Positions 651-59,936 of a stretch of 64,000 bases of DNA are shown here, piece by piece. The stretch lies in assembly GCA_037043015.1 (NCBI GenBank), contig CM073328.1, positions 18,015,495 through 18,079,494 of the forward strand. Reading direction: 5' to 3'. A program made the translations under genes and the position numbers. Under the pieces are notes generated by a model. That model had not been told where the DNA came from, searched no databases, and was given only the letters and a program-made list of their open reading frames with translations. Numbering within the stretch: position 1 is the stretch's first letter; each line of letters starts with the position of its first letter. This DNA is from Bryum argenteum (taxonomy: Eukaryota; Streptophyta; Bryopsida; Bryales; Bryaceae).

Positions 651-651
651 A

Positions 652-1612: not shown

Positions 1613-1629
1613 CTTAGCGTTTTCAAGCA

Positions 1630-2210
1630 GTTCAGAGAATGGCAACATTTGGGACTGAGTCAATACTTCAAAAGACGATGCTATGGCTCATACATTGGCC
1701 ACACCGGAGACCGAGTAGCCCCAATAGGCTCCAAACACCAATGAGTGGCTGGCGCCGGAGCAACAAGGGGCGCTTTTCCCCCTGCTCGGGGAGGGGGGTG
1801 GCTTGCATCCAACAGGCCCCCTTCCTGTCCGGCTGGAGCCCCCACCGACTGGCCCGAGGCCCTTCCTTATTTTTAAATTTTTAAATTTTTTTAATATAGA
1901 TTTAGTTTGTATTTATTTCTTATTTGATTTCTTCTTGAATTTTTTATTACCTCACTTTATACAAGTTATTGCAATTACGATTACCTCGATTTTTTTGTAT
2001 TTTTTAAATTTTATTTTTTGAAAACTGAGACTACCCCCTTTTCTTCCGTGCCCCTGCTGGACTGGCCTACTAGTTCAAGGCCACACCGGCCAGCAAGGAA
2101 TTCAAGCCCCCAAGCCCATGCTGGCTGGTTGGATCGGGCTGCACCCTTGGTGGCCCGATGTGGCCTTGCTATGAGGTTGGTTGCCTACATTCTGTCTAGA
2201 AAGGTGTGAA
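1630..2210. other. GC-contrasted segment of unknown origin
   Basis: Two GC-rich blocks (about 1690-1865 and 2040-2190) flank a very AT-rich block (1866-2025). Words such as GGCC, CCGG and 'actggcc' recur in both blocks. Short frames are open, but none resembles a protein family. It may be a TE fragment or a captured piece of GC-rich host DNA. Confidence 0.25.
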
Positions 2211-2219
2211 TCTACACTT

Positions 2220-4486
2220 CAAACCGTAGGTGCATCTGATGTATGGTGCCCTATCAAAAGTATATTTTCACAAGAGAAACAAGGGAACATACCTCAATTT
2301 TCAAACAATTGACATATTCAAAAAAATGGCCCAAATTGTCAACTACAAGTTGTATTAGAGAAATTATGGAGTATTTCATACCATTGTTCAAAAGAATTTC
2401 AATAATAACGGGAGATTCTATTTTGACTTACGACATTTTAAACATATTATCTAGAATTGACCCATTGCTCTTATCACAAGCTACTTTTGTTGAGGCATGA
2501 CACAATGGAAAACTTCAACCATCCCTAATAAAAGAAATTTCAATACACTTTCTATATATGTAATAGCTTTCGAGATGGAAATTGAATTGAACCCACGAAG
2601 AAGCTCAATTTTGGACTTTTGTACTTTAGCTAAAGTGTCATGATAAACAAGAGTAGCTTTCAATGATCATGACTACCGACTCGAATAACCAAATTACATG
2701 AAACTACCACCAAAGTGTCCGAAATATAGAAAATGTTATCAAAACTATCTCTTCCATGTTCATCCAAACCTCATGTATAAAAAAAATCCATGAGCAATGA
2801 TTGCAGTATAAAATATGTACGTAACTTTTTTAGTAAGAGACAACGTCAAGGCTTCTTACGCAAACTTAGTTCAATATTTGTAAATTTGAGCCAAATAAAA
2901 GTAAAGAACATCAAAAGAGGTTTCTAAAGCGATATTATATCACACTCTTTCGCAACAAACCTCACCATGTGAAGATCTTCATAAGAGCTAAAGGTAGATA
3001 CTAAAAAGTAAGTTAAAAGATATTAATGTTATTAAATGTATTTACACTTCTCTTGGAGAATTTTCATGTGTTTTCGAAGAGAAGTGTCCTACCTTTCTTA
3101 CGTACTTCATAAGTTGCAATTTAATTAAATTCTACAAACATGGGGGCATTTGAAAGTTGAATAAATGTTATCTCTAATGGCTCTAAACAAAAACTTTTGA
3201 CATGGCACTGCGCACTTTATACGGTGTGTGCTCGTAATCTACCTTTATTTTTTTGGTACACTAAAAGTTATATTCAGTGTCGACTGCACTAATTGATATA
3301 TAATCAAAATAACTTTATACTTTTGATGAGAGAAAGGATAGAAACTCCTATCCCATTCTAAGGGGCTGCCGTGTATGAAGTGTCCGTTTGTAATGCTGAT
3401 AACCCAATGCCCATTGGACAAGGGGAAATGGGAGCAATACTACTTCCCCCTTTCGAGGGTGGACTCTAAAACTCTATAACTATACATAGGTCTTCTAGAT
3501 AGTACCTTGCTTGTATGTGTGCATGTACACTAAATCTCAAATTTGAATCCCCCACCATATATGAGATCGTAATGTTTAAAGTTGGAGAATTAGTTTTTTT
3601 CAATTGTTGCAAAGAGGAAGTGAAGTTTTTGTAAGTTGAAACAAACCAATTTCAGAAGTAAATTTGACCTAAGGCTCTTATTCAGTTCTTAGGTGAGTAG
3701 GTTCATGTCTACATGATTTTTACGCTCATTCAACCTATGAAATCCAAGGAAATGCTTGAATTTTTACATAGAGGTATGCTGAAATTCAAATACATAGGCT
3801 TGTCTTTACAATAAAAAAAGGCATGTGAAGAATTAATGAACTAAAATTTTCAATCACGAGATCATATCTCAGATGCTTATTGCATGGAAACAACAAAACT
3901 TTAGAAAATTCTTAATTTCCCACAAGTTTAAGAAGTTTTTGCAATTTAATTGATTATGGGGCAGATTTTCTCCTAAAGAGGAAAAGTGCTCTACCTATTG
4001 GTAAGATTGATTTGACAATAGAGCCACTACATTTCTAAATATGCATAACCTCAATGTGTATAACCACACAAGGACGCCTTTACTTATAAAAAAGAAATGT
4101 ACCAGAAAGATCATGATCTAAATGGAGAATAAAATTTGGATCTAGATCCAAATCTGAATCTTGGCTACAAGAGTTCGATGGGGTGCCAAAGTCAAATTAG
4201 AGAGTCAAGTCGACTCTAGGTTCGAGTCAGCTACCACCTAGGAGGTGATACATGGTAACTTAGTGCTACCAATAAGGGTTTCAATCACTCAAAGTTATAA
4301 AATCCCGTTGACACTTTTCGGGAAGGAATGAAAAAACTCTACAATGTGCGAAGTTTTTATCTTCATAGAATCTAAGTTTAGTAAATCAAATACCGACCAA
4401 ACTTAGATCGACACAAATCAAGCTTCCTTCTACTCCAGCGAGTCAAGAATATTCTTTAAAATCTCTATTTAAGAAATTCTTGAAAG
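2220..4486. other. Intergenic, TE-derived, no gene seen
   Basis: No credible coding region. A 5'-truncated SINE lies at 3334-3500 (listed separately). Around 3600-4000 the text resembles family C repeats near 58200-58800. The remainder is unique AT-rich sequence in which I see nothing definite. Confidence 0.5.
3334..3500 (-). mobile_element. Truncated old SINE copy (3' part)
   Basis: The string 'ggatagaaactcctatcccattctaagg' and the following GAAGTGTCCGTTTGTAATGC and GGACAAGGGGAAATGGGAG match the 3' portion of the full SINE at 61445-61807 (same orientation) with many substitutions. The copy continues into the 'ccccctttcgagggtgga' part and then fades. It is older than the copies at 25.1, 30.0, 30.3 and 61.4 kb. 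Confidence 0.6.
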
Positions 4487-4551
4487 TTAACCCTCAAACG
4501 TCAGGCTATACGGATTTGGGTAGCCCGGTATTGGATTACAACATCTTTTGG

Positions 4552-4640
4552 ACTTGGGCATCATGAATAGTGCACTTTTTGAACTTGGGCATCATGAATA
4601 GTGCACTTTTTGAACTTGGGCATCATGAATGATCCAATCA
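4552..4640. repeat. Three-copy 32-bp tandem repeat
   Basis: The word 'cttgggcatcatgaat' occurs three times at a 32-bp spacing, separated by 'agtgcactttttgaa'. The related element at 57605-57964 has two copies in the opposite orientation, so the copy number differs between insertions of the same TIR family. Confidence 0.85.
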
Positions 4641-4841
4641 GTGATGAGCTTACAACCTCCTACAACGTTATGTACAACCCCAACTGTGAGCCTAAATTCC
4701 GGTGAGCCGGTTTTTAAGCCACAAGTTGGGCCATGGGGGTGAAGTTCAACACTATCTAGCCTTCCAAGCAATGTCCCTTTGAATTCTCCCTACAATTTCA
4801 GCGCATCATTCAAATTCTTACCTAGATCTAACTTATGTTAA

Positions 4842-5428
4842 CCCCTAAAGATCCTTGGGTGTTTTTCGGAGCTTGAAACCTCACAACTCCAATTCTCTAC
4901 TTCTATGCACTTCAAGGGGTGCGAAACAATTTTTTTATTCTTTTTTTAACTTCCAACCGTAAGATCTTGTATGAGTTGTATCTAAGCCAATTTTCAATAT
5001 CTAATTTAAAAATTGACCGTTGGATGTTTACCATTTGAGAGATCATAACATCCAAAGTTTGTCTACGAAGTTTTTTAGGACATTGTTGAGATTATTTTTG
5101 ACACTTTTGGAGGCTGCCCTTGTAGAATTGGTACTCTTAGTGACTTGGGGCCCTTTAGAACTTAGGTAGTGATTTGGTCATGAACATATTTCCAAAAAAA
5201 AATCTCAAAAAATTACTAAATTTAAACTGCCCCAGTTCGGCTCGCAAACCAAGAATTGTTGTAGAAGACTGAAAAATTAGAATTTGGCTTTGCAAATTTT
5301 ACCACATACACTTTGCAGTATAGGGAGCACTCATTAAATTTTTTAGGCAAAAATATTACTTTTAACCTATTCATCTAGGCTGCCCAAAATAGCAAAAGCC
5401 CGATTTGGTCCTCTTGGATCTTTAGGGG
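4842..5428. mobile_element. Nested TTAA-flanked TIR element, 587 bp
   Basis: The TIR is CCCCTAAAGATCC at the left and GGATCTTTAGGGG at the right, with TTAA on both sides (4838-4841, 5429-5432). It sits inside the 4.8-kb insertion and so is younger than it. It has an A end on the left (TTGGGTGTTTTTCGGAGCTTG-like) and a B end on the right. The copy at 20449-21035 is also 587 bp. It has no coding capacity. Confidence 0.85.
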
Positions 5429-6182
5429 TTAAAATCATTTCTTCTTACTTTGCATGTAACCTTAAGCCTAAATCCCGGTGACCCGGTTTTTAAGCCACAA
5501 GTTTGGTCGTGGGGGTGGATGCAAGTAAAACGACCTTCCAAGCAATGGACACCAAACTTCATACATACATGCAGTTTCTAGTTTGGATTCACAAGAAGAC
5601 ACAACCATTCACTCAAGTCTCCATTTAATGCAAAACAAGTAGCTCCAGCAGTGAATTGAGTCCGCCAAGCCTCCCTAGGAGGTTCAAATAACCCTCATTT
5701 GACCACCCAGGGCCTAGGGCTCAATTATGGGCACAAAATGACCAAAAGGAACACTTAAGGCCTCTAAAACACATATGGACTAAGAGGTCCAGCACACAAT
5801 TTAGGGCTGAAAAGGGGTTGCAAATCACATCAAAGCACCTTCTACCTCAAGCCTAAGCACCCAATCAACATATGAGTGCTAACAATCGACTAAACATGCA
5901 ATTCTCCACCACTACACAATTTTAGGGTTAATTGGAGAATTTTGGGCAGCGCTTCCGCGCGATTCCCTCACACGAATTCAAATCATGACACAAGACAATC
6001 AAACCAGCATACACAAGCAAGAAAACACACATTCATACATGAAACTATAACACAACATCACCAAATCAAGCTGCAACCCAAACATGTTTTTGGGCAACAA
6101 ATTGCCATTTTCCAAAGCATTCATGCATCTAACCCCACTAGGGTCGTTGCACACACAATCTAGCTACTCAAAAGTGTCACAA

Positions 6183-6887
6183 TCACATCAAAGGAGGATG
6201 AAATGGGGCTTCCCTCAATCTGCCGCCACCAGTAAGGTCCCTTTGGTAGAACGACGATTTCTCCCTCGTCCTTGCTCCAATGGGGGCGAGCTTGGTCCCG
6301 TTAGAAAGAAAACTCGACAATGCTCCTGGATCTCTAAGGCACGCCCCCCAATTCCTTGCCCATCGTGAGATCTCGTCTTTCAAAGCCGACCCTTCAACTC
6401 TGCCGTCACCAGTAAGGGTACTTTGGTAGAATTGCGATTTCTCCCTCGTCCTTGCTCCAATGAGGGCAAGCTTGGTCTTGTTGGAAAGAAAACTCGACAG
6501 CGCTCCTAGATCTCTAAGGCACGCCTCCCAATTCTTTGTCAATCGTGAGATCTCGTCCTTCAAAGTCGGCCCCCCAACTCTGCCGTCACCAGTAAGGGTA
6601 CTTTGGTAGAATCGCGATTTCTTCCTCGTCCTTGCTCCAATGAGGGCAAGCTTGGTCTTGTTGGAAAGAAAACTTGACAACGCTCCTAGATCTCTAAGGC
6701 AAGCCTCCCAATTCTTCGTCAATCGTGAGACCTTGTCCTTCAAAGTCGGCCGCCACTCCCAAATTGAAAACTCCAACCCTTCTATCTTCTCCTCCAACCT
6801 ACCCCCACTCACACCCACATGCAACGAATCCACACATCCTACTTGCAAGTTTTTTTTTGTGTTAGACCACCCAACTCTATTTTGCAT
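6183..6887 (-). CDS. Repeat-built open frame, 234 codons, inside the 4.8-kb insertion
   Basis: An ATG-initiated frame of 234 codons is open through three 180-bp tandem repeats. Each repeat encodes a roughly 60-residue unit with the words 'LKDEISRLTKNWEACLRDLG' and 'ALIGARTREKS.FYQ'. The period is a multiple of three, so the frame survives duplication, and no stop occurs in any unit. I do not recognise the protein. The N-terminal 40 residues carry one further related stretch ('RLEEKIEGLEFSIWEW'). It may be a fragment of a host gene captured by the element and amplified, or a chance frame kept open by the repeat period. There is no signal peptide and no known catalytic motif. The position inside a mobile element argues against an ordinary host gene. 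Confidence 0.3.
   Translation of the reverse strand: MQNRVGWSNTKKNLQVGCVDSLHVGVSGGRLEEKIEGLEFSIWEWRPTLKDKVSRLTKNWEACLRDLGALSSFLSNKTKLALIGARTRKKSRFYQSTLTGDGRVGGPTLKDEISRLTKNWEACLRDLGALSSFLSNKTKLALIGARTREKSQFYQSTLTGDGRVEGSALKDEISRWARNWGACLRDPGALSSFLSNGTKLAPIGARTREKSSFYQRDLTGGGRLREAPFHPPLM
6221..6757. repeat. 180-bp tandem repeat, three units
   Basis: TGCCG.CACCAGTAAGG occurs at 6221, 6401 and 6581, an exact 180-bp period. Units 2 and 3 are nearly identical by eye; unit 1 is more diverged and more GC-rich. The third unit ends near 6757, where a different GC-rich word begins. Confidence 0.9.
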
Positions 6888-7859
6888 AGTTCAACCTAAG
6901 AAAACTTTCACACACACACACACCCCCTCTTCCCCCAAAAAAGACTAGCCTAACGGCTTCTCCCTTGACTCTCCCCCTCCCTGGTTGCTCCAGGGAGGTT
7001 GAAGCAAAAGCTTCATCCGTCCAATTGGGCGGATTTCATCCGTCCAATTGGACGGACTTCCATCCATAGTTTTTTCCTAACCAATTAGGCAAGATAAAGG
7101 CACCAAACTTCACATGAGGGGTTTTGTAGAAGGTAAGGGCAAGATGGGGCAACCCGACCCCTACTTAGGAATACGTAATCGCTAAAACATACTAAAAACT
7201 CGCCATTTAATATATTGGCGTTCATCAAAAATATTAATTTGGTATAAATTAGAGCAAGAACGGCCCGCTTGTGCCAAAACCTCATTTGAGACCACAGGTA
7301 TTCCATGAATCCACGAAATGGGCTAAAAAGTCTAATTAAACCATGAAAACCTGACAATTACGTGCTAAACCTTGCGGGGAATGTATTCCCGCTAAAGTGA
7401 ACCGTTTCGCGGGTTCACATAACCCCATTACCACATGAAGGATAATGATTACTTACACGTGCAATTCTTAGTTTAGACACAAATTAGGTTTGATTGGAAC
7501 TTTTTGGGCAGCGCTTTCGCGTCAACCCCAAATTCCTAATTTTTTACCTAAGTTTTACCAATTCACCCTAAAAATGGGCAGCGCTTCCGCACTACCCTTG
7601 CACACAGTAAATACTAGCACACGACTACCTCAACCAACAATTCAGCAAGAACCATATAAACATTCAAACACAAGAACAACCACCAATCACAAGTGCAAGC
7701 AATGCTAAAATAGATCAAAACTAATAATTTTTGGGGCAATGGATGTTGCCATTTTCAAGATTAAGTTCACCAACTCTTAACAAACAATCTAAGAAAACAA
7801 CATGAACAAATTTTAAGTAAAAAGAAGGGGGAGGGAGGAGCTCCCTCACTCATATCCCA

Positions 7860-18281: not shown

Positions 18282-18910
18282 CCCTAACCGTTTGTGTGTC
18301 TTTAGAAGCTTGCAAGTAGAAAACTGCATTTTTCAACCACTATACACTCTCGGGAAGTGTGGTCCAAGTTTGTTTACATTTATAGATTTTCAACTGTAGG
18401 ATCTTGGAGCCAACTCTATTTAAAAGTGTTGATATAAACCTCAACCATTGGATCTTTTTCATTTGTAAGATCATAACGTTCAAAGTTGAATCTAAACTTC
18501 TTTTTGTCCTTGCCCGAAATGCATAGTCTACATGGTCCCAACAACAAGTTTTATATTATTTCCCAAAACTTTTTGCTCTTGTTATTTTCCTCGTAAGTAC
18601 TCAAGTTGCGGATAAGCATGCAAGATTTTAGGCGCTCATTCAAGTTTTTGAACCTTCATCTAGTTTGTTTTCTACAGGGAGGTCTAAATTGGCATTGTGT
18701 CCATTCAAAGGGCCGAATTCACATAGCATATAGAGTTTTTTATAAATTCAAAAATAGGACGAGTAGATTTTGCTCTTATGCGTGGAGGAATTTTTGAGCA
18801 CAATTATATTCAGAAATTCAAATTCTCAATTTTAAACGATTTACCCAAGGGTTAGTGCAAGAAATTGGCTAAATTCTAAGATGGGCAGCCACGATATACT
18901 AGAACTCATG
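18282..18910. mobile_element. Decayed TTAA-type TIR element
   Basis: The left end (TTAAACCCTAACCGTTTGTGTG) is a mutated A end, followed by the family words 'gaagcttgcaagtagaaaactgc', 'tatacactctcggg' and 'ttgtaagatcataacgttcaaag'. The B end fades near 'gatgggcagcc' at about 18885. Limits are approximate. Confidence 0.45.
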
Positions 18911-20440: not shown

Positions 20441-20448
20441 GGGGTCAA

Positions 20449-21035
20449 CCCCTAAAGGACCAAGGATGTCAAAAGTGGTTTTTGCAATTTCAAGCAGCTT
20501 AGATAAAGGACTTGAAAGTGATCTTTGTTCTTAATATTTTTAATAGTTGCTCCCTACACTACAAGGTGTGTAGGTGTCACAAATTGCAATGTCAAATTCC
20601 AAATTAAGAATTTTTTGAACACAATTTTTTTTTTAAGCCCAAAATGGGCAGTTCTGGAAAGTTTATATTTGGCGCTTAATTATTTAATTTTTTTGAAATG
20701 ATTTCATAACTAGACCACCAATTGAGTTCTAAAGTTCCCAATTCATAAAGTCTACCACTTTTACTAGGGCACCCCCCAAAATTTACAATAGCAAGCTTCA
20801 AGATGTTGCAGAAAAGCTTTTGCATCAACTTTGAACGTTACGGTCTTACAAATGGTAAAGATCCAACGGTGGAAATTTAAGATGGTTTTAGACGAGGTAG
20901 TTATTTTGAAGATATTAAGGTTGAAATGTCAAAAAAGTAAAAAATATTAAATTATACCCACAACCCGCACAAAGTCATCAAAAAATCTCAGTTTTTGGTT
21001 TTGAAGGCTCAAAAACACGCTTCGTCCTTTAGGGG
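20449..21035. mobile_element. TTAA-type TIR element, 587 bp
   Basis: The left end CCCCTAAAGGAC follows TCAA (20445-20448, one change from TTAA); the right end GTCCTTTAGGGG precedes TTAA (21036-21039). The length equals that of 4842-5428 and the interior is related, in opposite orientation (B end left, A end right). It has no coding capacity. Confidence 0.75.
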
Positions 21036-21462
21036 TTAATCTAAAAGTTACATTGTATATCCAATTGTAGGATCGTAGAGTTAACTTGATAAATTGAGCA
21101 TGTTTCAATTATTAACTCATTTTCAATTTTGAGATTGTAATGCTCGAAGTATGGTGAAAAGAGCTTTTCAAAACCCTTAGAGACTAATTTGGACTTTACA
21201 AAACTCTAAGAATTAAGCACACCCAAATAGCAAAGAGTGATTTTAACTTTCCATACTTTTTACAAGTTAACCCGTGGAGATCCTTAATGCAAAATTGCCA
21301 AAAGCAACCTTCTACTCGCATCAAAGAAAAAAATTAAGCATTATTTAGATCTAACCCGTAGGATATTAGGGTTTACTTGAGAGATTACTCCCAGGCTAAA
21401 TTTGAACTATTGATTCTTCTTTGATTGAGAGATTGTAATGGTTAATCCCTATCTACTTTCAA

Positions 21463-24098: not shown

Positions 24099-24998
24099 TT
24101 AACCCCTAAACGCGCCAAATGTCGAAAAACGACATTTTGGATGGAAGGCAACAACTTTGAATAGCCATATCTTCTTCATTCGAGGTCCGTTTCGGATGAA
24201 ATCACTTGGATTAGGTTCCAAATCAAGTCTATTTTGTGTTTTAAAATTTGCAAACCCATACAATAAAGTATGAACTAATGGAATGCACTTTAGTGAAGAC
24301 AACTCTTGTTTTTGGGTTTCCAAGCATGGGGCATGTATTACCATTGCAAGCCAATTATGTGAAATTAAAAATAATTTCTCATGATTTTATTTTTTTTCAT
24401 GATCATGATCTTAAGGTGATTCTTAACAACTTTGAAGTGAGAAGTTTTTTGATCCAAATGATTTTGCTATTGGATTTGCAATGATGTTTTGTCAACAGAA
24501 AAAGTGAGAAAATGGATGATATTTGAGGAGCTATATCTCCCTCATCCACCGCTGGATTTCAACTTAATTTTTTGGGATGGCCTCCAATTAGAGTCTAATC
24601 TAAGTGGTAGAAACCTTAACAAGATCGAAGATGTTTTGAAGATAAGGCATGAAATTGAATGCAAAGGGTCTAGTTTTGGACTATTTTTCCTTTGTAAAAT
24701 TTTCGGCAGTTTTTACCATTGCATGGCTTTTATTTGAGCCAAGAAATTTTTTTGATGAATTTTTGTTGGGTAAATGACTTATTAAGATGAAGGTGAACAT
24801 CTTTCTAGTTGGTGATTTTTTCATTGCAATAGGTATATTGGTAGCATTTTCACCTCAAAGTGAAAATGATGAAATTTTGCAGTTTGATTTTAGTATGAAT
24901 ATGTTATGATCTCCCGATCTATAAGGCCCCATGACTCAAATTTTGGTCCACATGATCTTCAATAAGTCTATTACAAGTTTGTACGGTTGAGATCTTAA

Positions 24999-25340
24999 CC
25001 CTTAAAGGTCCCTTGGAGATAGTATGTACGGTGGCGTATAATTGAGATTTGCTACCAACAAGAAAGATAGATAGAAGATAGAAACTCCGGTCCCTTTCCA
25101 AGGGGCCGGCGTGAATGAAGTGTCCGTTCGTAATGCTAATATCCCGATGGCCACCGGACAAGGGGAAATTGGCAACAAGAAACTCTATATTGTGATCTTA
25201 AAAGCTTAGTAGAACCGCATGGATTTATTTGTCAACTTGTTCTTTGAACTCAAATCTATTAAAGGTGTGCACTCATTCCAATACAACCAAAATACGCTGT
25301 ATTCTAGCAACCAAAATATGGTTGTTCGGACCTTTAAGGG
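24999..25340. mobile_element. Nested TTAA-flanked element, 342 bp
   Basis: The left TIR CCCTTAAAGGTCC and right TIR GGACCTTTAAGGG are perfect over 13 bases, with TTAA at 24995-24998 and 25341-25344. It is inserted in the 1322-bp element and itself carries a short SINE. The uninterrupted relative at 21463-22425 has only four bases between the same flanks. Confidence 0.85.
25066..25172 (-). mobile_element. Short SINE insertion, 107 bp, with TSD
   Basis: It is flanked by CAACAAGAAA (25056-25065 and 25173-25182). It matches only the last ~100 bases of the full SINE (GAAACTCCGGTCC... to GGGGAAATTGG) and has a (GATA)-type tail at its left. It starts at the same internal point as the copy at 29974-30078. 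It is nested inside the 342-bp TTAA element. Confidence 0.85.
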
Positions 25341-25478
25341 TTAATAGCTTCTCTTCATTTTCATTAATGACGATTTTTATGAAAATGTGCTTTTCTGCTA
25401 AAAATAGGTTGGGACGTTTGGGGGTTAAGTGTTAAAATTGGTTTTTTGGGCTCACAAAAAAACTTCGAACCCACTTTG

Positions 25479-36598: not shown

Positions 36599-36982
36599 TC
36601 AGCTGTTCACAGGGACTTTGTGCTGTGCGATGAAATTCTCGAAATCTGGTGAGTTGAAAAAGCTCGTGGGCTGCACCCGCTGTCGCCTGCGAGCCATGGC
36701 GCGCGGCTTCCGAGGCGCGGGCGGGCAGAACGTCACGTCGACGTCCGGTATTCTGTGCTCCTTCGACTTGGGCGTCGTCGGTGTCTCCAATTGCGCCTCA
36801 GGCTCTAAGCTCACCGTCTTCAACTCCTTCACCGAGCTCCCTGGTGGGGAAGTCGTGGTCGCGATTCTCCCCGGCCACAGAATGGGTAGACAGACCCAGC
36901 TGTCGAGAGAGAGACGTCGTCTTCCTACACCCATGTCGACTGAATCCGTGTGCAACCTGGTACAAACAGTAGTGGGCGCCAT
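36599..36982 (-). CDS. SMR: SIAMESE-RELATED (SMR) cyclin-dependent kinase inhibitor, copy A, 127 aa
   Basis: SMR proteins are small plant-specific nuclear inhibitors that bind CDK-cyclin complexes and stop mitotic cycling, often at the switch to endoreplication or under stress. The frame is open from a TTG at 37000. The first ATG is at 36982 and gives MAPTTVCTRLH, which aligns with the MASTMV start of copy B, so I use it. Residues 21-33 (RRRLSLDSWVCLP) form a block shared with copy B. Residues 66-82 (ETPTTPKSKEHRIPDVD) and 86-94 (CPPAPRKPR) are the SMR signature, the second also related to the KRP inhibitors. Arg-rich 98-102 may serve nuclear import. Residues 108-118 (FFNSPDFENFI) match the C-terminal cyclin/CDK-contact motif of the family. 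The length is typical and the gene is intronless like most family members. I cannot assign an SMR number. Confidence 0.92.
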   Translation of the reverse strand: MAPTTVCTRLHTDSVDMGVGRRRLSLDSWVCLPILWPGRIATTTSPPGSSVKELKTVSLEPEAQLETPTTPKSKEHRIPDVDVTFCPPAPRKPRAMARRRQRVQPTSFFNSPDFENFIAQHKVPVNS

Positions 36983-37560
36983 TGCTAGAATGAAACTCAA
37001 TAACCCTACGAGAAATTGCTGCTACCGGTTCGGCAAGCTTACACTACACACGACACTTTCGTAAATATTTTTAATAACATTTTCTGATGCAAAACACGAT
37101 TTGCGAGCTCCAAAGTGCGGGACGGGGTTTAAAAGAGACAGGAAAGCAAGGTTAATGATGTGGGAATAATTGCCAAGGCAGAGAAACTACCCGACCGAGC
37201 GCAGAACTAAAGAGAGAAGGAGCGCGAGTGTCAGAGAGAAGGCGAAAGCGAGGAGGATGTAAGAGCGGAATGAGTGAAGGGGGTGGGGTTTAAGAGCTCG
37301 AGTGATGAGGAGCAAGGATTCTGTAGCTGCTGGTGCAGCATATTATATGCGGACCCCCGGCTGGATGCTTCTTCCCCTTTCTCTTCCCTTACCTGGCGCA
37401 CCTCGCCAGCGAGGGAAAGGCAACGCGAAGGGGAGGCGTCGCCAGGACGGGCCGGCCACGACGCGTTGTTAGTCGCGACAGTGGCGACGGTCTTCTCCGC
37501 CGTCCGTGCTGCCCTGCCCTGCCCTTCCCTGCCCGCGGGCTCCTGGGCAGCTGCGTGAAC
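36983..37560 (-). promoter_or_regulatory. Upstream region of SMR gene A
   Basis: Reading upstream on the minus strand, the 5' side has an AT-rich patch (37060-37085) and a purine-rich plus strand at 37130-37270 ('agagagaaggagcgcgag'), which is a CT-rich stretch in transcript sense. Such stretches are common in plant 5' UTRs and proximal promoters. A TATA-like TATAAT lies at about 37340-37347 on the minus strand, far from the ATG. GC-rich frames at 37274-37611 (plus) look like by-products of the GC content. Confidence 0.35.
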
Positions 37561-43939: not shown

Positions 43940-43943
43940 TTAA

Positions 43944-44483
43944 CCCCTAAGAGCCCAATCAACCATTTTATGGTCGATCCCGAATTTTGAGGAGCTGTAC
44001 CTGAATAAAAAAATATTTTTTTGGAATTTTTTTTAACATTCCAGAAGTTTGGTAAGTTAGGAACCACATCCAATTTATAGAACCCTGTTTGGATTCATAG
44101 ATTGTTCAGAATAAGCCTTCAAACACAAACAGGGCAAAGTTTTCTTAGTGTAAGAAAACTTACTATTTTGGGAAACTAATGAGGTTTCTCATAGGTTACT
44201 TGTGGCCTTTCTCCATTTTATCATATAATATGTGATTTTAGCCAATCATAGCAATTTCCAATCACTAATAATAGAAATTACATTTTATATTGATTTTCAA
44301 AGTTTTACTCTCTTTAATTAATTATGAAACAAATCTTACTTATTTTAAGAAATTTAACCGTATAGATCTAATTTGGGTTTAAGGTCTTCATACTATCTTT
44401 GGAGAGCTACTTTACAGGGGTTACCGAATCCATATTTTATAACACATCTAAGTTTTTCTTCAAACCCCTCGGGCCTTTAGGGG
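43944..44483. mobile_element. TTAA-flanked TIR element, 540 bp (family F3)
   Basis: The left end CCCCTAAGAGCCC follows TTAA (43940-43943); the right end GGGCCTTTAGGGG precedes TTAA (44484-44487). The interior matches 23574-24098. Both are in the same orientation. No coding capacity. Confidence 0.85.
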
Positions 44484-44489
44484 TTAAGG

Positions 44490-48662: not shown

Positions 48663-48666
48663 TTAA

Positions 48667-49145
48667 CCCCTAAAGGTCCAAGAAAGCGAAAACTGCTTTT
48701 TGGAGTCCAAAATTCAGCCAACTTTGACCATTATAATCTCACAAATGAAGAAAAATCAACGGTTCAATTTTGGCAAGAGAGTGGAAGGTTAAGTTAACCC
48801 TTAAACGTCATATGCTTTCCTGATACCACAGCCAAAATCTCTTTTAAACTCCATTTTTAGCATTATTCTATTTTTAATTTGCTGGAGCTCTATTCTAAGA
48901 AAGTATAGATCTCTTTAAGGTGCTCAGTTTGAAATTCTAAAAATTCCATTTGGTATAATGGAGTGTAAGTTATGAGCAAGATTCTCTCAAAAAAAAACCC
49001 AACCCCTCGGGTTGGGTCTGACGTTGAAGGGTTAACTTCAAGATCCTACGGTTGGATCTTCCAAATAATTCTTAGATTGAGATTTTTTAGGCCTGAAGTA
49101 AGGGAATGTCCATTTTTACAATTTTGCATCAAGAACCTTTAGGGG
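48667..49145. mobile_element. 241-bp-family TTAA element carrying a nested TTAA element (479 bp)
   Basis: The left end CCCCTAAAGGTCC follows TTAA (48663-48666); the right end AACCTTTAGGGG precedes TTAA (49146-49149). It is the same element as 54077-54317 except for the insertion 48798-49031. The arithmetic is exact: 241 + 234 + 4 = 479. No coding capacity. Confidence 0.93.
48798..49031. mobile_element. Nested TTAA-flanked element, 234 bp
   Basis: The left TIR CCCTTAAACGTCA and right TIR TGACGTTGAAGGG, with TTAA at 48794-48797 and 49032-49035. The uninterrupted relative has one TTAA at 54204-54207 between identical flanks. A foldback CCCAACCCCTCGGGTTGGG lies near the right end. Confidence 0.93.
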
Positions 49146-49509
49146 TTAAACAATTATAGGGCATTTGAGAACAAAAGAAAATAATGCCAAATGTATTCAT
49201 TTGAACGTTGGCACCAACGGCGTGTTCATTTGACATTTAGTTGATGTTCATGCCCTTCGTATACGGCACTAGTGGTACATGATTGCTAATCCCTTTCAAG
49301 ATGGACACCATATGAACCTCATATCATTCTCATAAAAGAGTATTAAATTAAGAAGCTCTAGGTAACTTTTTGTATTTGGTTAATTTAGTCAAGAAACTTT
49401 TGAGATTAATTTTTTAGGGTATAAGATTGTTACTAAGATGAAAGTTAACACCTTTTTAGTTGGAGATTTCCTATTTGTTAAAGGTTCTTTTGAACCATTT
49501 TCAATTTAA

Positions 49510-50245
49510 CCCCTAAACTACCATGGTGTTTTGTGAGCTCCAAACTCCAAAATTGCAATTTCATACCACCTTGTAAACTTTGGAGTATGAGAATATTTTT
49601 TACACTTTTTTAAAACTTTCAACCGTAAGATCTTGAAGAGAATTTCTATTAGAGGTAGGGGCTGAAATTTCAACCGTTGGATCTTTACCATTTGTAAGAT
49701 CGTAACATTCAAAGTTAATGCAATCTTTTTTTCAGCAAACATAGTCCTCTTTGTTGAAAGGAAAACGTGATGCTTATAACCTTAAACATCTAGCTTATAT
49801 TTTTTTCCATGTATGCAACTAAGTTGAGCATGCCCATGCAAAATTTTAGACACTCATTTTGCTTTTTGAACCTTCATGCAATTTAAATACTAGAAGAAGG
49901 TGGAAATAAAGGATTTGGTAAAACATGCACCATGTTTATTGTATATGGTTTAGGGGAAAAATGAGCGGCAAGTATATACCTTCTTGAGTTTTTGAATTTC
50001 AAGACAAAAGAAATTCAAAAAATTCCAAAATCCTAGATTTTGGCAAATTTTGAAAGAAAAAATTGTAATATCACATAAAACTTTGAATCTAGCTCTTGTA
50101 ATTTTTTAAGAGTGCCCTTGTAGGATTGGTAAAAGTTTCAACTTGGGTCATTTGGAAACCTAAGTACAAAATCAATCAAGAAAAGATCAAAAAAAAAAAA
50201 AATAAAAAAATAATCTAAAATTAAAGATATATATATATATATAAT

Positions 50246-50285
<40 letters not shown>

Positions 50286-50496
50286 TTTTATTTTCTGCCC
50301 GCCCCAAGGGTGAAAACTAAAGTTTGCGTTTACAAACTCCTAAGGTGGAGTTTGACGTTGCAAATTTTCCCACATACACCTTGTAGTATAGGGAATATTG
50401 AGTAAAAATCATAGGCATAAATCTTACTTTTAAGATCTTCATTTAGCCTGCCCGAAATCGCAAATCTCCTAATCGGAGGCCTTGGTAGTTTAGGGG
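49510..50496. mobile_element. TTAA-type TIR element, 987 bp
   Basis: The left end CCCCTAAACTACCATGG follows TTAA (49506-49509); the right end CTTGGTAGTTTAGGGG precedes CTAA (50497-50500). It is the inverted relative of 59024-59928, collinear over its length. Part of the length difference is the simple repeat at 50227-50285. The A-end interior is shared with the 587-bp members. Confidence 0.85.
50227..50285. repeat. (AT)n-(TTTA)n microsatellite
   Basis: About eight AT units run into about ten TTTA units. It lies inside the 987-bp TTAA element; the relative at 59024-59928 has only a short A-rich run at the matching place, so it expanded after insertion. Confidence 0.95.
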
Positions 50497-50595
50497 CTAA
50501 AGTGAAAATGATAAAAATGATAAAATCTTGTTTGAGAACTAAACCATGATGATTTTGCAACCTCATGACTCAAAATTAGATCCACATAACTTATA

Positions 50596-50697
50596 CTCCC
50601 TCTGTCCCATTATGATTTTCTGGTAGGTTCTCTCAAATCTACCTTTGGAGGTAGATTTGAGAGAACCTACCAGAAAATCATAATGGGACAGAGGGAG
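50596..50697. mobile_element. Perfect Stowaway MITE, 102 bp foldback
   Basis: It starts CTCCCTCTGTCCC and ends GGGACAGAGGGAG, with TA at 50594-50595 and 50698-50699. The arms are 49 bp each and perfectly complementary, around a 4-base loop (TTGG). CTCCCTC.GTCCC is the classic Stowaway TIR (Tc1/mariner superfamily). Perfect arms imply recent formation or insertion. Confidence 0.97.
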
Positions 50698-50699
50698 TA

Positions 50700-51453
50700 A
50701 TACATTGCTTACAAGATTGTATGAATGAGATACTTACCTTCATTTACATGAAAGATATTTTTAAAGTTTGTGTACAAAAATAGGTGGGGGCGATGAGGGG
50801 TCGAAGGAATGATTCTAAATGTAAACAACCAACTCTTAAACCAATCAAGGCCAAGGTTGAAAAATATGACAAATAATATTGAAATGCAGAGTATGACATG
50901 ATTGTCCAGGTCCAATGTGCTGTGAGTCCTTACCCCTACAATCAATCATTCTATCAGTTTACCTTGAGGGGTTTTCTCTGTCAAAATGTCAGGTCCAATG
51001 TTTGGTTACCTACCTCCTATCTTAACTTACACAATTATCACACAAATATTTCATTCCTGTGAGCAATATTGACACCCCTACTGTAGAATTACCTAACCTA
51101 CCTTGGTAGGAGCATCTATATCCGGACGCCCCCCTTTGACCGGACACTCTTTTTCATACATTTTCTCACTTGTTTTCTAGATTAGCTGATCCTTGAATGT
51201 ACCCCATTCTTAGATTTTAGAGTGTCTGGTTGTGAGTGAGATTATACTAAACTTTGCTGGCATTTATCTAAGTGCTTGAAAATTCCACAAAAATGTGGAA
51301 AGATAATATAATTGCTGAAAAACAATAAAATCACACATGTCATCACTCCACGTATGCTGAATGACTTAAGCGTCCCATGATAAGTGTTCTTACCCTACTT
51401 ATTATTCATACCAAAAAGTGTGCAAATAATGATTCAGACATTGCATTGCTAAT
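50700..51453. other. Intergenic, no feature identified
   Basis: No shared repeats or coding signal noticed between the Stowaway element and the 294-bp MITE. Confidence 0.4.
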
Positions 51454-51455
51454 TA

Positions 51456-51749
51456 AGGTAGAGGCACCCATTCCCGACCGGCTACCAATACCCGATCAAG
51501 CCCAATTCCTAGATTTTGAAAGAACACATGTACCTCATTTGTATATTTGAGCATGTGATCGACTTTAGGTTCCAAGCAACTTTTCACTTTAAACAATTAT
51601 AACTATTTGAATAATGCAAATAAAATCACGAAACTTTTTGCATTCAACAAGAACCTTATGTTTGCACACATGAAAAATTCTAAAAAAAATATATACCTTA
51701 ATATCATATGCTAAAATCCTTAAATGGTCGGGTATAGGTGCCTCTACCT
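51456..51749. mobile_element. TA-flanked MITE, 294 bp (copy 2)
   Basis: Same termini as 32258-32551 (AGGTAGAGGCACC...GGTGCCTCTACCT), with TA at 51454-51455 and 51750-51751. The length and orientation are identical and only a few substitutions are visible. It lies directly against a SINE remnant, so it may have inserted into that SINE. Confidence 0.9.
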
Positions 51750-51751
51750 TA

Positions 51752-51905
51752 CTCTAGTCCACCCAACCATGGTTTACGGTTCTTGAACCGTGTTGTATGA
51801 GTATCTCAAAGCCACTTGAGAAATGACATGTTAGTTATATCTTAGGTGTGATTAGATAGAAACTACCATAATCTTTATGTCATGAAGGAGGGTTATTAGT
51901 AACAC
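51752..51905 (+). mobile_element. SINE remnant (body)
   Basis: 'tagtccacccaaccatggtt' and 'tgttgtatgagtatctcaaa' match the body of the full SINE at 30269-30622 after its B box. The head is missing; the 294-bp MITE ends exactly where the remnant begins. Confidence 0.55.
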
Positions 51906-52714
51906 CATCTGCGTTATGATCTCTAGGCATAAACTCTAAAGGATACGTCAATCGGATATGCCCGCCTTGATATCAGTAGCTGTGGAATTCTTCTTATAAA
52001 CTCAATAACCAAGAGCAAGATTGATAGCTCATCACAACATAGAGAAGTTTTTCTTTTGGGAAACGAACCAAACAAGTTGACGCTCACTTAGTTTGTTTTT
52101 TTAATCCTAATTGTATTCATTAATTAAGAGATCTATCATACCCAATTAGTCCTCAACTATTTTCATGAAGCTAGCTTTTCTATATCTACCCTTACTCAAC
52201 TGTATGTGCATGCCCAACAAGATTAATCTGGAGGTAGTTGTACAAACATTCAAACTCAATAATGATCATGATAAAATAAATAGTAAAATCAAAATACATA
52301 TTTTATTTTATTTTTGAAACTTACAGTTCATGATTCAAACTCAAATGAGTGGCTCAAGTATATGCATGACATCTTGATCACATTAATGGTCTCATGCAGA
52401 TACATGCACCATGTACATCAATGCAGAGAGAGAGAGAGAGAGAGAGAGAGCAATTAACCCTGAATTTCTGTTTACTAGTAACTCTCATGAGACTAGTACC
52501 ATACTTGGTACATGTATGGCTTGCCCAATTTTTGCACGGAGCAATGCAGAAGTGGTTCATCACCGCACCACGAGCGAGTAGAAATGAGAGATCAAATCAG
52601 GATCAAATGCGACACGGGTATTTTCCAAAATGACATCAGAAGGATTTTTTGATCTTTGAAAACTAACATGTCGGCATTCGAGGGTTTTTAAAATGATAAG
52701 AATGCGAGGTTCAC
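51906..52714. other. Intergenic with a (GA)n run
   Basis: An AG dinucleotide run spans 52425-52450 (13 units). Otherwise AT-rich, with frames that overlap on both strands. No gene accepted. Confidence 0.45.
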
Positions 52715-52716
52715 TA

Positions 52717-52942
52717 AGGTAGGAGTGGCTAAAACCGTCCCGCCCCAAAAACCGTCCGAATTTCAGCTTTGCATACTTGGAATAGTGGTGTAAAATTTTA
52801 ATTATTTTTCGATAGTCTGCAAAGCTAGTGCAAATCCATCCCAAAAAAAAAGACATTTTTTGAGTAATCCTATAATTTCCTATGAATATTTGAACCCTAC
52901 CGTGCGGTTTTTGGGGCTGGACGGTTTTCGCCACTCCTACCT
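52717..52942. mobile_element. TA-flanked MITE with ~45-bp TIRs, 226 bp
   Basis: The left arm AGGTAGGAGTGGCTAAAACC pairs with the right arm ending GGTTTTCGCCACTCCTACCT, with TA at 52715-52716 and 52943-52944. The pairing continues inward through GCCCCAAAAACCG, about 40-45 bases with a few mismatches. The first six bases equal those of the 294-bp family (AGGTAG), which suggests related transposases. It accounts for frames previously open through here. Confidence 0.88.
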
Positions 52943-53054
52943 TAAAATCCTTGATGCAATGATTTTTACTTGGTGTCATCACATACGTTTCAATCATGTT
53001 AGGATAGAATCTCAAATTTGGACATACTTCGGTACGGCCGGCTACACATTGCTT

Positions 53055-53140
53055 CTTACAGATTCTGATTTGAGGGGCAGCTTCGCAAATTTTGCTACTT
53101 ACAAATTCTGATTTGAGGGGCAGCTTCGCAAATTTTGCTA
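53055..53140. repeat. 43-bp tandem duplication
   Basis: 'cttaca.attctgatttgagg' and the following GGCAGCTTCGCAAATTTTGC appear twice in direct succession with one substitution. It is a young local duplication. Confidence 0.92.
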
Positions 53141-53256
53141 TGTATGTAATGATCCAATTTTGAAACTTTACTTGAACTACTTGAAGATGGATAAATTATA
53201 TATTTAACATGCTATGTCAGTAAAATGCTCATAGTGGCTTTGTAGACTTCACTTAA

Positions 53257-53425
53257 TTCGTGAATGGTTTGACTCATAGGTGGATAAAAGAACACATTCT
53301 CAACATTTTCACTTTGAAGGGAAAATGCTATCAATATACTTATTGCAATAAACAAATCTACAAAGATGTTTACTTTCATCTTAATAAAACCCTTGAACAA
53401 AAAAAAAAAAAAAAAAAAAAAAACA

Positions 53426-53461
<36 letters not shown>

Positions 53462-54072
53462 GAAAAACGTCTTTACGTAGAAAATGACCTTGCAATGGAG
53501 AAAAACGTCTTTGCGTAGAAAATGACCTCGCAATGGTGAAAATTGCCAAAAAAAATTTGAAGGAAAATTAGTTCACAACTAAATCCTTTGCACTCAAATC
53601 TATGCCTTATTTTCAATACATCTTTGATTTTGTCAAGGTTTGTAAAAAATTGAATAAAGGAGATATAGCTCCTCAAAAGTAACTGACAAAATGTTTATTC
53701 AATTTTTTCATTGTAGGAACATCATTGCAAATCCAGTACCAATTTTATGTGGATCAAAAAAATCCTCCATCTTAAAATCATGGTTGAGGGGAAAAAAAAA
53801 ACAAAATGCCATAAAAACATCTTCTTGACTTCCCGTAATTGCCATACAATGATAAAACATGCCCCATGCTTGAAAACAAGAGTTGCCTTCACTAAAATGC
53901 ATGCCATTTATTCTATACTTCATTTTGTGGGTCTACTATTTTAAACGCACAAATAAGACTTTATTTGAGACCCAAATCAAATAATTTCATCCATTACAAA
54001 CTCCAAATGCAGACGCTATTGTTGTTGCATTCATCCAAGATGTTGTTTTTCAACATTCGGCCCAGGTAAGAG
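53257..54072. mobile_element. F1-type TTAA element, decayed ends
   Basis: TTAA (53253-53256) is followed by TTCGTGAATGGTTTGACTC, a mutated form of the end at 63332 (CCCTTGAATGGTTTGACTC). The interior follows the F1 order. The right end (CAACATTCGGCCCAGG) stops just before the TTAA used by the 241-bp element at 54077. A 41-bp duplication ('gagaaaaacgtctttrcgta') lies at 53460-53542. Confidence 0.65.
53398..53466. repeat. Poly(A) and (GAAA)n run
   Basis: About 24 A followed by ten or so AAAG units, inside the F1 element. The short plus-strand frame across it is low-complexity. Confidence 0.95.
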
Positions 54073-54076
54073 TTAA

Positions 54077-54317
54077 CCCCTAAAGGTCCAGGAAAGCGAA
54101 AACTGCTTTTTGGAGTCCAAAATTTGGCCAACTTTGACCATTATAATCTCACAAATGAAGAAGAATCAACGGTTCAATTTTGGCAAGTGAGTGGAAGGTT
54201 AAGTTAACTTCAAGATCCTACGGTTGGATCTTCCAAATAATTCTTAGATTGAGAGTTTTTAGGCCTGAAGTAAGGGAATGTCCATTTTTACAATTTTGCA
54301 TCAAGAACCTTTAGGGG
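54077..54317. mobile_element. TTAA-flanked TIR element, 241 bp (uninterrupted)
   Basis: The left end CCCCTAAAGGTCC follows TTAA (54073-54076); the right end AACCTTTAGGGG precedes TTAA (54318-54321). This is the empty-site reference for the nested insertion at 48798-49031: at 54204-54207 it has one TTAA. No coding capacity. Confidence 0.93.
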
Positions 54318-54547
54318 TTAACATAACAAGCATGCATCAAACATGTGAAAATAGTATTTAATATTTTTGCAAGACCCCTCAATAATATTTCCACCAAGAA
54401 TGTGTCATTCCACCAATCCTCATGGAATAATCCATTCATATTGGTACAAAATTCAAGCTTACCGGTTTCTTGAAACCACAAAATATATCACTTTCTCCAT
54501 ATTGTGAAATTATTGGAATGTGATATAGTGGTCAGAGATTTATTTAA

Positions 54548-54788
54548 CCCCTGAAGGTCCTTGATGCAAAATTGTAAAAATGGACATTCCCTTACTTCAG
54601 GCTTAAAAATTCTCAATCTAAGAATTATTTGGAAGATCCAACCGTAGGATCTTGAAGTTTACTTAACCTTCCACTCACTTGCCAAAATTGAACCGTTGAT
54701 TCTTCTTCATTTGTGAGATTATAATGGTCAAAGTTGGCTGAAATTTGGACTTCAAAAAGCAGTTTTCGCTTTCCTGGACCTTTAGGGG
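54548..54788. mobile_element. TTAA-flanked TIR element, 241 bp, inverted copy
   Basis: The left end CCCCTGAAGGTCC follows TTAA (54544-54547); the right end GGACCTTTAGGGG precedes TTAA (54789-54792). The length equals 54077-54317 and the orientation is opposite. At the site that is interrupted in 48667-49145 it reads TTTA (TAAA on the other strand). Confidence 0.93.
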
Positions 54789-54792
54789 TTAA

Positions 54793-56737: not shown

Positions 56738-57148
56738 TCAGTAGAGGTAGCACGGCGACAAACACAAGTCGTGGTTGCTACCAGAACTCTCGTACTCGGA
56801 GGAGCAAGCCAACGACATGCGACTCATCCCGCGGGCCTTCTTGGGAGCAGGAGGGCAATTCTCGACGTCGACATCAGGAATCTTGTGACCTTTGGGCGTC
56901 TCGCATTCCTCCCCAACCACACTGCATTCACTGATATCCAAGCTGGAAGCGCGGGAGTGATGGGAGGAGGCATTGCTTGGCGTTCCGGAGCTTGAAATGC
57001 TGCTGCTCGCAGTGCGGACGGGGCGGAGCGAAGGAAGGGAGACCCACGAATCGACGAGCGACAATCGGCTCCTGCGGCCGAAGGGGCTCCCGAATCCCAA
57101 ATTCTCGTACGCTTTGGGTGATTGACAATGCACCATAGTCGACGCCAT
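56738..57148 (-). CDS. SMR: SIAMESE-RELATED (SMR) cyclin-dependent kinase inhibitor, copy B, 136 aa
   Basis: An ATG at 57148 opens a single-exon frame of 136 codons. Residues 25-39 (RRSRLSLVDSWVSLP) match the block at 21-33 of copy A. Residues 83-95 (ETPKGHKIPDVDV) and 98-106 (CPPAPKKAR) are the SMR signature, nearly the same as in copy A (IPDVDV..CPPAP.K). The central 47-70 is Ser-rich and may be a phosphorylation-prone linker. Unlike copy A, the C-terminus (109-136) is Ser/Cys/Tyr-rich and lacks the FF..PD.E.F motif; I see no such motif in the other frames nearby, so a simple frameshift does not explain it. It has the same orientation as copy A, about 20 kb away. The expected role is CDK-cyclin inhibition in the nucleus, perhaps with altered binding. 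GC content is far above the flanks. Confidence 0.92.
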   Translation of the reverse strand: MASTMVHCQSPKAYENLGFGSPFGRRSRLSLVDSWVSLPSLRPVRTASSSISSSGTPSNASSHHSRASSLDISECSVVGEECETPKGHKIPDVDVENCPPAPKKARGMSRMSLACSSEYESSGSNHDLCLSPCYLY

Positions 57149-57600
57149 GGAGTCCGAGTAAAGATGGAGGGGAAGACAGAAAGGACCTACACTACACTAG
57201 GGGAGAGACGGAGCGAAAGGGGTGACGAAGCTGTGAAGCTAAGTGAAGAGAGAAGAAGGAAGCGCGCGCGTTTTAGATCGAGAATGAGCGCGATCAACGT
57301 CAAGTCACATGGCGCTCGATTTAGATCTGTGGCTTCCTCCTTTCTTTCAAATTCGCACCCACCCGCCCCGGACTTGTCGCTCCCGGTCACGCTCTCGGTC
57401 ACGGTCAGATCAGATCTTCCAGTGGAAAAATCTGCAGTCCACTTCCCTTGGCGCCACCACTTGTGATTTGCTTCCGCAGCTCATGCAACATCATGTTGGG
57501 GTCGATTTGCCGAACATATCTAATTCCCTGGAAGTCAAGCATGTCAACTCACTCGCTCACTCGCATCGTTTCAGCTTCTCTTCGTTTCACCCTTAACTTT
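57149..57600 (-). promoter_or_regulatory. Upstream region of SMR gene B
   Basis: The plus strand at 57160-57270 is purine-rich ('gaagagagaagaaggaagcg'), so the presumed 5' UTR is CT-rich in transcript sense, as upstream of copy A. A GCGCGCGCG run lies at 57263-57271. I find no convincing TATA box. A TTAA element begins at 57605, so the undisturbed promoter is at most about 450 bp. Confidence 0.4.
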
Positions 57601-57604
57601 TTAA

Positions 57605-57964
57605 CCCTTAAACGCCCAAGCAAGCCCAACAGGGGCTTGATTCCAACAGAATCTTCCCTGTTGCTCTCACTGTACTCAACTTTTCACTTATATTTTGATG
57701 TCAAACTGGTCACCATCTTACGATGCATTCAAAAAGTGAATTTTTACAATTCAAATCACAATTTGTATGAAGGATTTTGTGCTTTGAAAGGATTGTGGTA
57801 GGTAGGTTGGGGTGGTACATAACCTTGTAGGAGGTTGCAAGCTCATCATTGATTGGTCCATTCATGATGCCCAAGTTCAAAAAGTGCACTATTCATGATG
57901 CCCAAGTCCAAAAGATGTTGTGATCCAATTTTGGGCTGCCTGTTTTACCAAGGGCGTTTAAGGG
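57605..57964. mobile_element. TTAA-flanked TIR element, 360 bp, upstream of SMR gene B
   Basis: The left end CCCTTAAACGCCC and right end GGGCGTTTAAGGG are a perfect 13-bp TIR, with TTAA at 57601-57604 and 57965-57968. It is the uninterrupted inverted relative of the element at 4491-9711 and supplies the empty site for the 4.8-kb insertion. It has two 32-bp repeats. No coding capacity. Confidence 0.93.
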
Positions 57965-57968
57965 TTAA

Positions 57969-59019: not shown

Positions 59020-59023
59020 TTAA

Positions 59024-59928
59024 CCCCTAAACTACCAAGGCCTCCGATTAGGAGATTTGCGATTTCGGGCAGCCTAAGTTAAGATGTTAAAAGTAATATT
59101 TTTGCCTAAGATTTTTACTAGATGCTCCTTACACTACAAGGTGTATGTGGGAAAATTTGCAAAGTCAAACTCCACCTATGGAGTTCTTAAACGCAAATTT
59201 TAGTTTTCAGCCTTAAAAAAAACTTTTTTTTTACCTTTAAAAAAAAATAAAAAATAAATAAATCTTTTCTTGATTGATTTTGTACTTAGGTTTCCAAGTT
59301 GAAACTTTTACCAATCCTACAAGGGCACCCTTCAAAGATTACAAGAGCTAGATTCAAAGTTTTCTTTGATTTTTCAGTTTTTTCTTTCAAAATTTGCCAA
59401 AATTTGAGATTTTGGAATTTTTTGAATTTCTTTTTTCTTGAAATTCAAAAACTCAAGAAGGTGTATACTCACCGTTCATTTTTCCCCTAAACCATATACA
59501 ATAAACGTGGTGCATGTTTTACCAAATCCTTGATTTCTACCTTCGTTTAATATTTAAATTGCATGAGGTATCAAAAAGCAAAATGAGTGTCTAAAATTTT
59601 GCATGGGCATGCCCAACTTAGTAATATATATGGAAAAAAATATGAGCTAGATGTTTAAGGTAATAAGCATCACGTTCTCCTTTGCACAAAGTTGACTATG
59701 TATGCTGAAAAAAAATTGCATCAACTTTGAATGTTATGATCTTACAAATGGCTACAATCCAATGGTTGAAATTTCAGCCACTACCTCTAATAATAGTTCT
59801 CTTCAAGATCGTACGGTTGAAAGTTTCAAAAAGTGTAAAAAATATTCTCACACTTCAAAGTTTACAAGGTGGTATGGAATTGCAATTTTGGAGTTTGGAG
59901 CTCACAAAACACCATGGTAGTTTAGGGG
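59024..59928. mobile_element. TTAA-flanked TIR element, 905 bp
   Basis: The left end CCCCTAAACTACCAAGG follows TTAA (59020-59023); the right end CCATGGTAGTTTAGGGG precedes TTAA (59929-59932). It is the inverted relative of 49510-50496, with the B end on the left. The frames at 59299-59936 are short and overlapping. Confidence 0.9.
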
Positions 59929-59936
59929 TTAATTAA

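Follow-up and report, generated by a model that had tools for sequence, protein, structure and literature searches.

We investigated a group of short repeated elements in a 64,000-nucleotide stretch of the Bryum argenteum genome (NCBI GenBank assembly GCA_037043015.1, contig CM073328.1, positions 18,015,495 to 18,079,494 of the forward strand), hereafter the window, whose own numbering is used for its features. The elements are almost certainly non-autonomous miniature inverted-repeat transposable elements (MITEs) of the piggyBac superfamily, moved in trans by the DDE_Tnp_1_7 transposases of full-length elements in the same plant genome; the movement of the MITEs itself we infer from piggyBac biology. 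piggyBac elements are cut-and-paste transposons best known from animals, where their MITEs are short and non-coding, with inverted ends and a TTAA duplication. The window elements share each of these features with animal piggyBac MITEs, and differ from the latter in their plant host, in forming families of 234–987 bp, and in the thousands of exact ends that are found genome-wide. An earlier note on this DNA, made from the sequence of the window alone, had read the elements as piggyBac-like; that reading is now supported by a 4-bp TTAA duplication, by ends that begin with CCC, and by partner elements that encode a DDE_Tnp_1_7 domain.

Nested elements and a 4-bp target-site duplication

A 479-bp element on the forward strand (48667–49145; 48663–49149 with its TTAA duplication) consists of a 241-bp MITE into which a 234-bp MITE was inserted at one TTAA, with duplication of that TTAA. 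The nested 234-bp element lies at 48798–49031 and has TTAA on each side (48794–49035, forward strand). An unoccupied relative of the host element, a 241-bp MITE at 54077–54317 (54073–54321, forward strand), carries a single TTAA at 54204–54207 (no strand), which is the empty target site matching the 234-bp insertion. Subtracting 234 bp and one TTAA from the 479-bp element leaves 241 bp, and this remainder aligns to 54077–54317 without gaps and with 6 substitutions in 241 positions. No substitution falls within positions 113–178, a run of 66 identical bases that contains the insertion junction, after position 131 of the 241-bp element. Hence, both the arithmetic of the earlier note (479 = 241 + 234 + 4) and its empty site with a single TTAA between identical flanks were borne out. 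A third 241-bp MITE (54548–54788; 54544–54792, reverse strand) is in reverse orientation, has TTAA on each side, and reads GTAAAC at the site. Close to its 3′ end, the 234-bp element contains a hairpin (CCCAACCCCTCGGGTTGGG, 48998–49016; stem of 8 bp) that lies next to an A run.

The window contains a second nested case. A 1,322-bp element on the reverse strand (24103–25424; 24099–25428 with flanks), one end of which reads CCCCCAAA, belongs to a family of approximately 970 bp and carries an insert, a 342-bp MITE nested at TTAA with TTAA on each side (24999–25340; 24995–25344, forward strand). A relative of the host element elsewhere in the genome (L005:533–1501) has a single 4-bp unit, there ATAA, at the site of the 342-bp insertion. 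At the same locus (L005:533–1739), a 969-bp and a 234-bp element lie end to end with one TTAA in common, as if the second had entered the duplication of the first.

We tabulated the flanking bases of 62 elements from three families, as the earlier note had proposed, after setting aside copies that were incomplete and, as duplicates, loci L001 and L034. TTAA was present on both sides of 56 elements, three had concordant non-TTAA repeats, and three had a change on one side, a result that favors piggyBac. In the 234-bp family (40 copies examined, mean pairwise identity 98.4%), 36 copies were flanked by TTAA/TTAA, one by CTAA/CTAA, and three had one side changed. The 905-bp family (11 of 41 rows, mean identity 94.4%) gave ten TTAA/TTAA and one CTAG/CTAG, and a 5.7-kb element described below (11 of 26 copies) gave ten TTAA/TTAA and one ATAA/ATAA. 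In the concordant variants all four bases are directly repeated, so that the duplicated unit measures 4 bp and is neither TA nor TTA/TAA; a duplication of TA or TTA/TAA would place the outer or the innermost base inside the element, which is contradicted by other copies.

Empty sites gave the same unit length. The joined flanks of ten insertions were queried, and paralogous unoccupied relatives were scored for four of them. Nine empty sites were fetched for these four insertions; they are paralogous unoccupied sites and not excision products. Each runs across the junction with a single 4-bp unit, which reads TTAA at seven sites, TTAG at another, and CTAA at the last.

Element ends and full-length partners across the genome

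The inverted ends are short, about 11–16 bp, and begin with CCC[C/T]TAAA, as in piggyBac in starting with CCC; the 234-bp and 970-bp families carry CCCTTAAACGTCA and CCCCTAAACGTCC. Genome-wide, TTAACCCCTAAAGGT occurs 924 times in forward and 924 times in reverse orientation, and TTAACCCTTAAACGYC gives 5,619 exact ends (2,820 + 2,799), while the reversed-pattern control of each gave 0 + 0. For the 13-mer CCCCTAAAGGTCC, TTAA lies directly outside 1,025 of 1,157 genome-wide matches (reversed control, 2 + 2). Each match marks a single end rather than a whole element, and ends that have mutated escape the count. Twenty 10-kb stretches, drawn at random except that two were replaced by hand, contained 43 occurrences of CCC[CT]TAAA, 25 of them with TTAA outside; the reversed core was found at 13 places, and TTAA was not among the ten most frequent flanks listed for it. 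A chance origin of the end pattern is thus excluded genome-wide. Elements of this kind were collected in a library, some of it taken from the very sequence analyzed, and this library matched about 14.5–15.2 kb of the 64-kb window and 13.7 kb of the 200 kb in the 20 other stretches.

The earlier note had also called for a search for a larger element with the same ends and a transposase, and two such elements were found, one for each terminus type (5,701 and 4,942 bp), both encoding DDE_Tnp_1_7. This domain (PF13843) is present in the same genome outside the window, where at least 116 of 775 candidates were scored and all 116 exceeded the cut-off (best E = 7.4e-82), and gave no match in 14 control genomes. 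By hand count, 93 of the 116 scored domains have no in-frame stop. Scored matches are lower bounds for all copy numbers given here.

The 5,701-bp element (L077:310–6010) has TTAA on both sides and CCCCTAAAGGCCC-type ends, CCCCTAAAGGCCCAGG and CCCCTAAAGGCCCAAG. It contains an open reading frame of 916 amino acids with a full DDE_Tnp_1_7 domain (E = 1.3e-75) that begins at residue 396. The domain has two PDB matches at E 0.01, namely piggyBat (9c0f, 3e-27) and piggyBac (6x67/6x68, 4.3e-25). Two more open frames lie upstream of the transposase (L077:835–1338 and 1366–1812); neither has a Pfam match above the cut-off, and they are possibly exons or accessory genes. At least 26 copies of this element were scored (L077 included), each spanning positions 1–5701 with an identity printed as 100%, and because all of them are full-length and printed as identical, the element must have moved very recently.

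The second element, of 4,942 bp, lies in L078 and the adjoining L088. Its ends are CCCTTAAACGCCC, TTAA flanks it on each side, and it encodes a full DDE_Tnp_1_7 domain (E = 2.9e-83). A query covering 4,598 of the 4,942 bp found a near-full copy of 97% identity on contig C5, long matches of 96–98% on C1 and C4, and older relatives. In addition, exact TTAA ends at 23339974 and 23345157 on C1 bracket the second-best transposase match.

Aligned over 498 amino acids, the two transposases show 38% identity, and they have the motifs DEMM, DN(Y/F)FTS, and GVD in common. A DDD triad is present: the aspartates in IDEMM, MDNYFTS, and MRGVDVADQ align to those of piggyBat and are predicted from sequence to be catalytic. 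PMC7351741 gives the triad as D268/D346/D447 and reports an overwhelming preference for TTAA at integration, and according to PMC10813416 the duplications of animal piggyBacs include rare variants, TTAG and CTAA among them. Like piggyBac of Trichoplusia ni and piggyBat, the elements described here combine a DDD transposase domain with CCC-starting ends and a TTAA duplication that has rare variants (CTAA, TTAG). Unlike them, they reside in a plant and are 4.9–5.7 kb long, and the 916-residue frame has a long stretch ahead of the start of the domain at residue 396. By eye, a cysteine-rich stretch follows the domain; its alignment to piggyBat 535–574 is non-significant (i-Evalue 3.2e3). No close relative of the transposase was found in viral contigs. 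Separately, an open frame at L027:1644–3677 resembles, by eye, a pogo-like DDE transposase.

Origin of the MITEs and alternative readings

We then compared 18 elements, a set that includes composites and members of one family, with the two autonomous elements, and nine matched one of the two at E 0.01 or better. The 241-bp element, for example, matches the 5.7-kb element over 40 bp of the 5′ end (82.5% identity) and over 124 bp near the 3′ end (74%). Given such identities, the MITEs probably derive from relatives of the two autonomous elements and not from those copies. They could be internally deleted or end-capturing derivatives of full-length piggyBac elements, with the transposases of those elements, or sister enzymes, moving them. 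A transposase would bind the inverted ends and excise the element; TTAA would be cut with a 4-nt stagger and the element joined to it, leaving TTAA on both sides. A subterminal GGCAG motif was considered as a common feature and was rejected, being present in too few elements.

Several observations weigh against the assignment to piggyBac. The other nine of the 18 compared elements, the 234-bp family included, have no match to either autonomous element at E 0.01, and what links them is solely the end pattern and the TTAA flanks. Sampling of the partners was limited, in that termini were read at two of the at least 116 transposase loci. Within the window itself, a Pfam scan of 10 of the 31 listed open reading frames found no transposase and returned one sub-threshold match. 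No empty site for the CTAG and CTAA insertions was present among 40 scored candidates. Lastly, exact TTAA does not lie outside 132 of the 1,157 CCCCTAAAGGTCC matches or outside 18 of the 43 CCC[CT]TAAA matches in the sampled stretches; mutation and chance matches may explain these ends.

The unmatched MITEs (the 234-bp, about 970-bp, 540-bp, and 342-bp families) might belong to a different, unseen TTAA-targeting family, as would fit the result that neither autonomous element matches them at E 0.01. We consider this very unlikely: their end pattern and TTAA flanks are like those of the other elements, and the genome has at least 114 further DDE_Tnp_1_7 loci beyond the two whose termini were read.

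The earlier note had raised a TA duplication within a strict T-TA-A target as an alternative that would look the same, and this did not hold up against the three concordant 4-bp variants and the piggyBac partners. Tc1/mariner (Stowaway-like) MITEs in such an unusually strict context would account for the central TA of TTAA and for its almost invariant inner T and A. However, CTAG/CTAG, CTAA/CTAA, and ATAA/ATAA all need outer bases that are duplicated and lie outside the element, and both partners read are piggyBac, so that the probability of this origin is minimal. PIF/Harbinger (Tourist-like) MITEs with a 3-bp duplication could draw on the TTA and TAA that both lie within TTAA, but CTAG/CTAG fits neither of these, the ends begin with CCC, and the partner transposase is DDE_Tnp_1_7, which makes such a source extremely improbable. 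Kolobok, an animal group that targets TTAA, would explain the duplication. Its ends are purine-purine, with AGGRR in T2-MITEs (PMC6004289), whereas those found here start with CCC and enclose a DDE_Tnp_1_7 transposase whose only two PDB matches at E 0.01 are piggyBat and piggyBac; we therefore give a Kolobok-type origin next to no credence. The three were rejected on the duplications, the ends, and the two partners read, and the genome was not searched for their transposase families.

Other features of the window, host genome, and implications

The window contains at least 12 complete elements whose ends are of the CCC[C/T]TAAA type, a count that omits pairs merely combining the ends of neighboring elements. 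The earlier estimate of about ten elements abutting TTAA or a one-base variant therefore stands: TTAA borders nine of the elements on each side, and a single flank base is changed in two more. The nine comprise the 479-bp element, the 234-bp element nested in it, the two further 241-bp MITEs, the nested 342-bp MITE, and four others. These four, all on the forward strand, are a 587-bp element with ends related to the 5.7-kb piggyBac (4842–5428; 4838–5432 with flanks), a 540-bp element without a match to the two autonomous elements (43944–44483; 43940–44487), a 360-bp MITE whose terminal 32 and 17 bp match the ends of the 4.9-kb piggyBac (57605–57964; 57601–57968), and a 905-bp element that has at least 39 further near-full genome matches and shares 389 bp, at 72% identity, with the 3′ end of the 5.7-kb piggyBac (59024–59928; 59020–59932). 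One changed base was found beside another 587-bp element (20449–21035; 20445–21039, forward strand, flanks TCAA/TTAA), which at one end shares 229 bp, at 73% identity, with the 3′ end of the 5.7-kb piggyBac, and beside a 987-bp element of the 905-bp family (49510–50496; 49506–50500, reverse strand, flanks TTAA/CTAA). Two pieces also resemble that 3′ end, at 1223–1595 (forward strand, 71% identity) and 18436–18682 (reverse strand, 75%).

A scan of the window with Rfam gave no matches. On the reverse strand, an open frame of 235 amino acids (6183–6890) is built of repeated units containing LTKNWEACLRDLGALSSFLSN. Two other reverse-strand frames (36599–37021 and 56738–57196), neither with a Pfam match, contain an IPDVDV..CPPAP motif, which we take to resemble SIAMESE-type cell-cycle inhibitors.

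The assembly comprises 258.8 Mb in 25 contigs, of which C1–C11 sum to about 258.4 Mb. Indirect evidence in the sequence points to a plant host. The plant-type telomere repeat (TTTAGGG)5 occurs 834 + 119 times genome-wide, with overlapping matches counted separately (control, 0). Interstitial (TTTAGGG)n is found inside C1, C2, and C3, and the 100 matches listed, which are ordered by contig, all lie inside contigs. A laccase exon at L030 has as its best PDB match 6klg, presumably a maize laccase. The best matches of a carboxylesterase exon at L032 are carboxylesterases, which we assume to be of plant origin, and gibberellin receptors. C1 (44.1 Mb, 17% of the assembly) is nearly free of the elements: by hand count from the listed matches, it holds 29 of 1,848 TTAACCCCTAAAGGT ends, 18 of 1,157 CCCCTAAAGGTCC matches, 90 of 5,619 TTAACCCTTAAACGYC ends, and 5 of the 116 scored transposase matches. 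It also carries 65 of the 953 telomere-type 35-mers, which is below its genome share. C1 could be a sex or heterochromatic chromosome.

The earlier note described piggyBac as not a standard plant group of transposable elements. This is right as stated. To say that the group is absent from plants would go too far, since reviews list plants loosely: PMC3902484 includes them among piggyBac hosts without detail, and PMC10794571, following Wicker, names PiggyBac as one of the class II superfamilies of plants. Red algae are given as occasional plant cases (PMC12732532), and a repeat table for C-fern contains 1,230 PiggyBac pieces, amounting to 0.00% (PMC6890710). A survey of MITEs in 207 plant genomes, including four bryophytes, sorts them into five superfamilies plus Micron (PMC12550479); a term search of its main text returned no mention of piggyBac or TTAA. 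The MITEs described here are like those of the survey in size range and high copy number, and differ in their 4-bp TTAA duplication and piggyBac partner. In the open-licence PMC literature, we recognized no report of land-plant piggyBac MITEs or of a piggyBac expansion in a land plant.

The superfamily is already known; the new finding is that piggyBac has expanded recently, on a large scale and in several families, in a plant, an unexpected host. The case is unusually complete, as it combines MITEs, empty sites, a 4-bp duplication established through its variants, and near-identical full-length partners. Taken together, it is likely that this land plant hosts a large and recently active native piggyBac radiation, with several autonomous and many MITE families, that forms a major dispersed repeat class outside the largest chromosome. 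If so, a sixth superfamily, one that targets TTAA, is missing from plant MITE classifications, and its members may now be filed under Tc1/mariner or PIF/Harbinger. The many near-identical full-length copies offer a plant-adapted transposase to test and are grounds for going through plant MITE annotation again in search of TTAA families, and the genome provides a system for studying how piggyBac reached and spread in plants.

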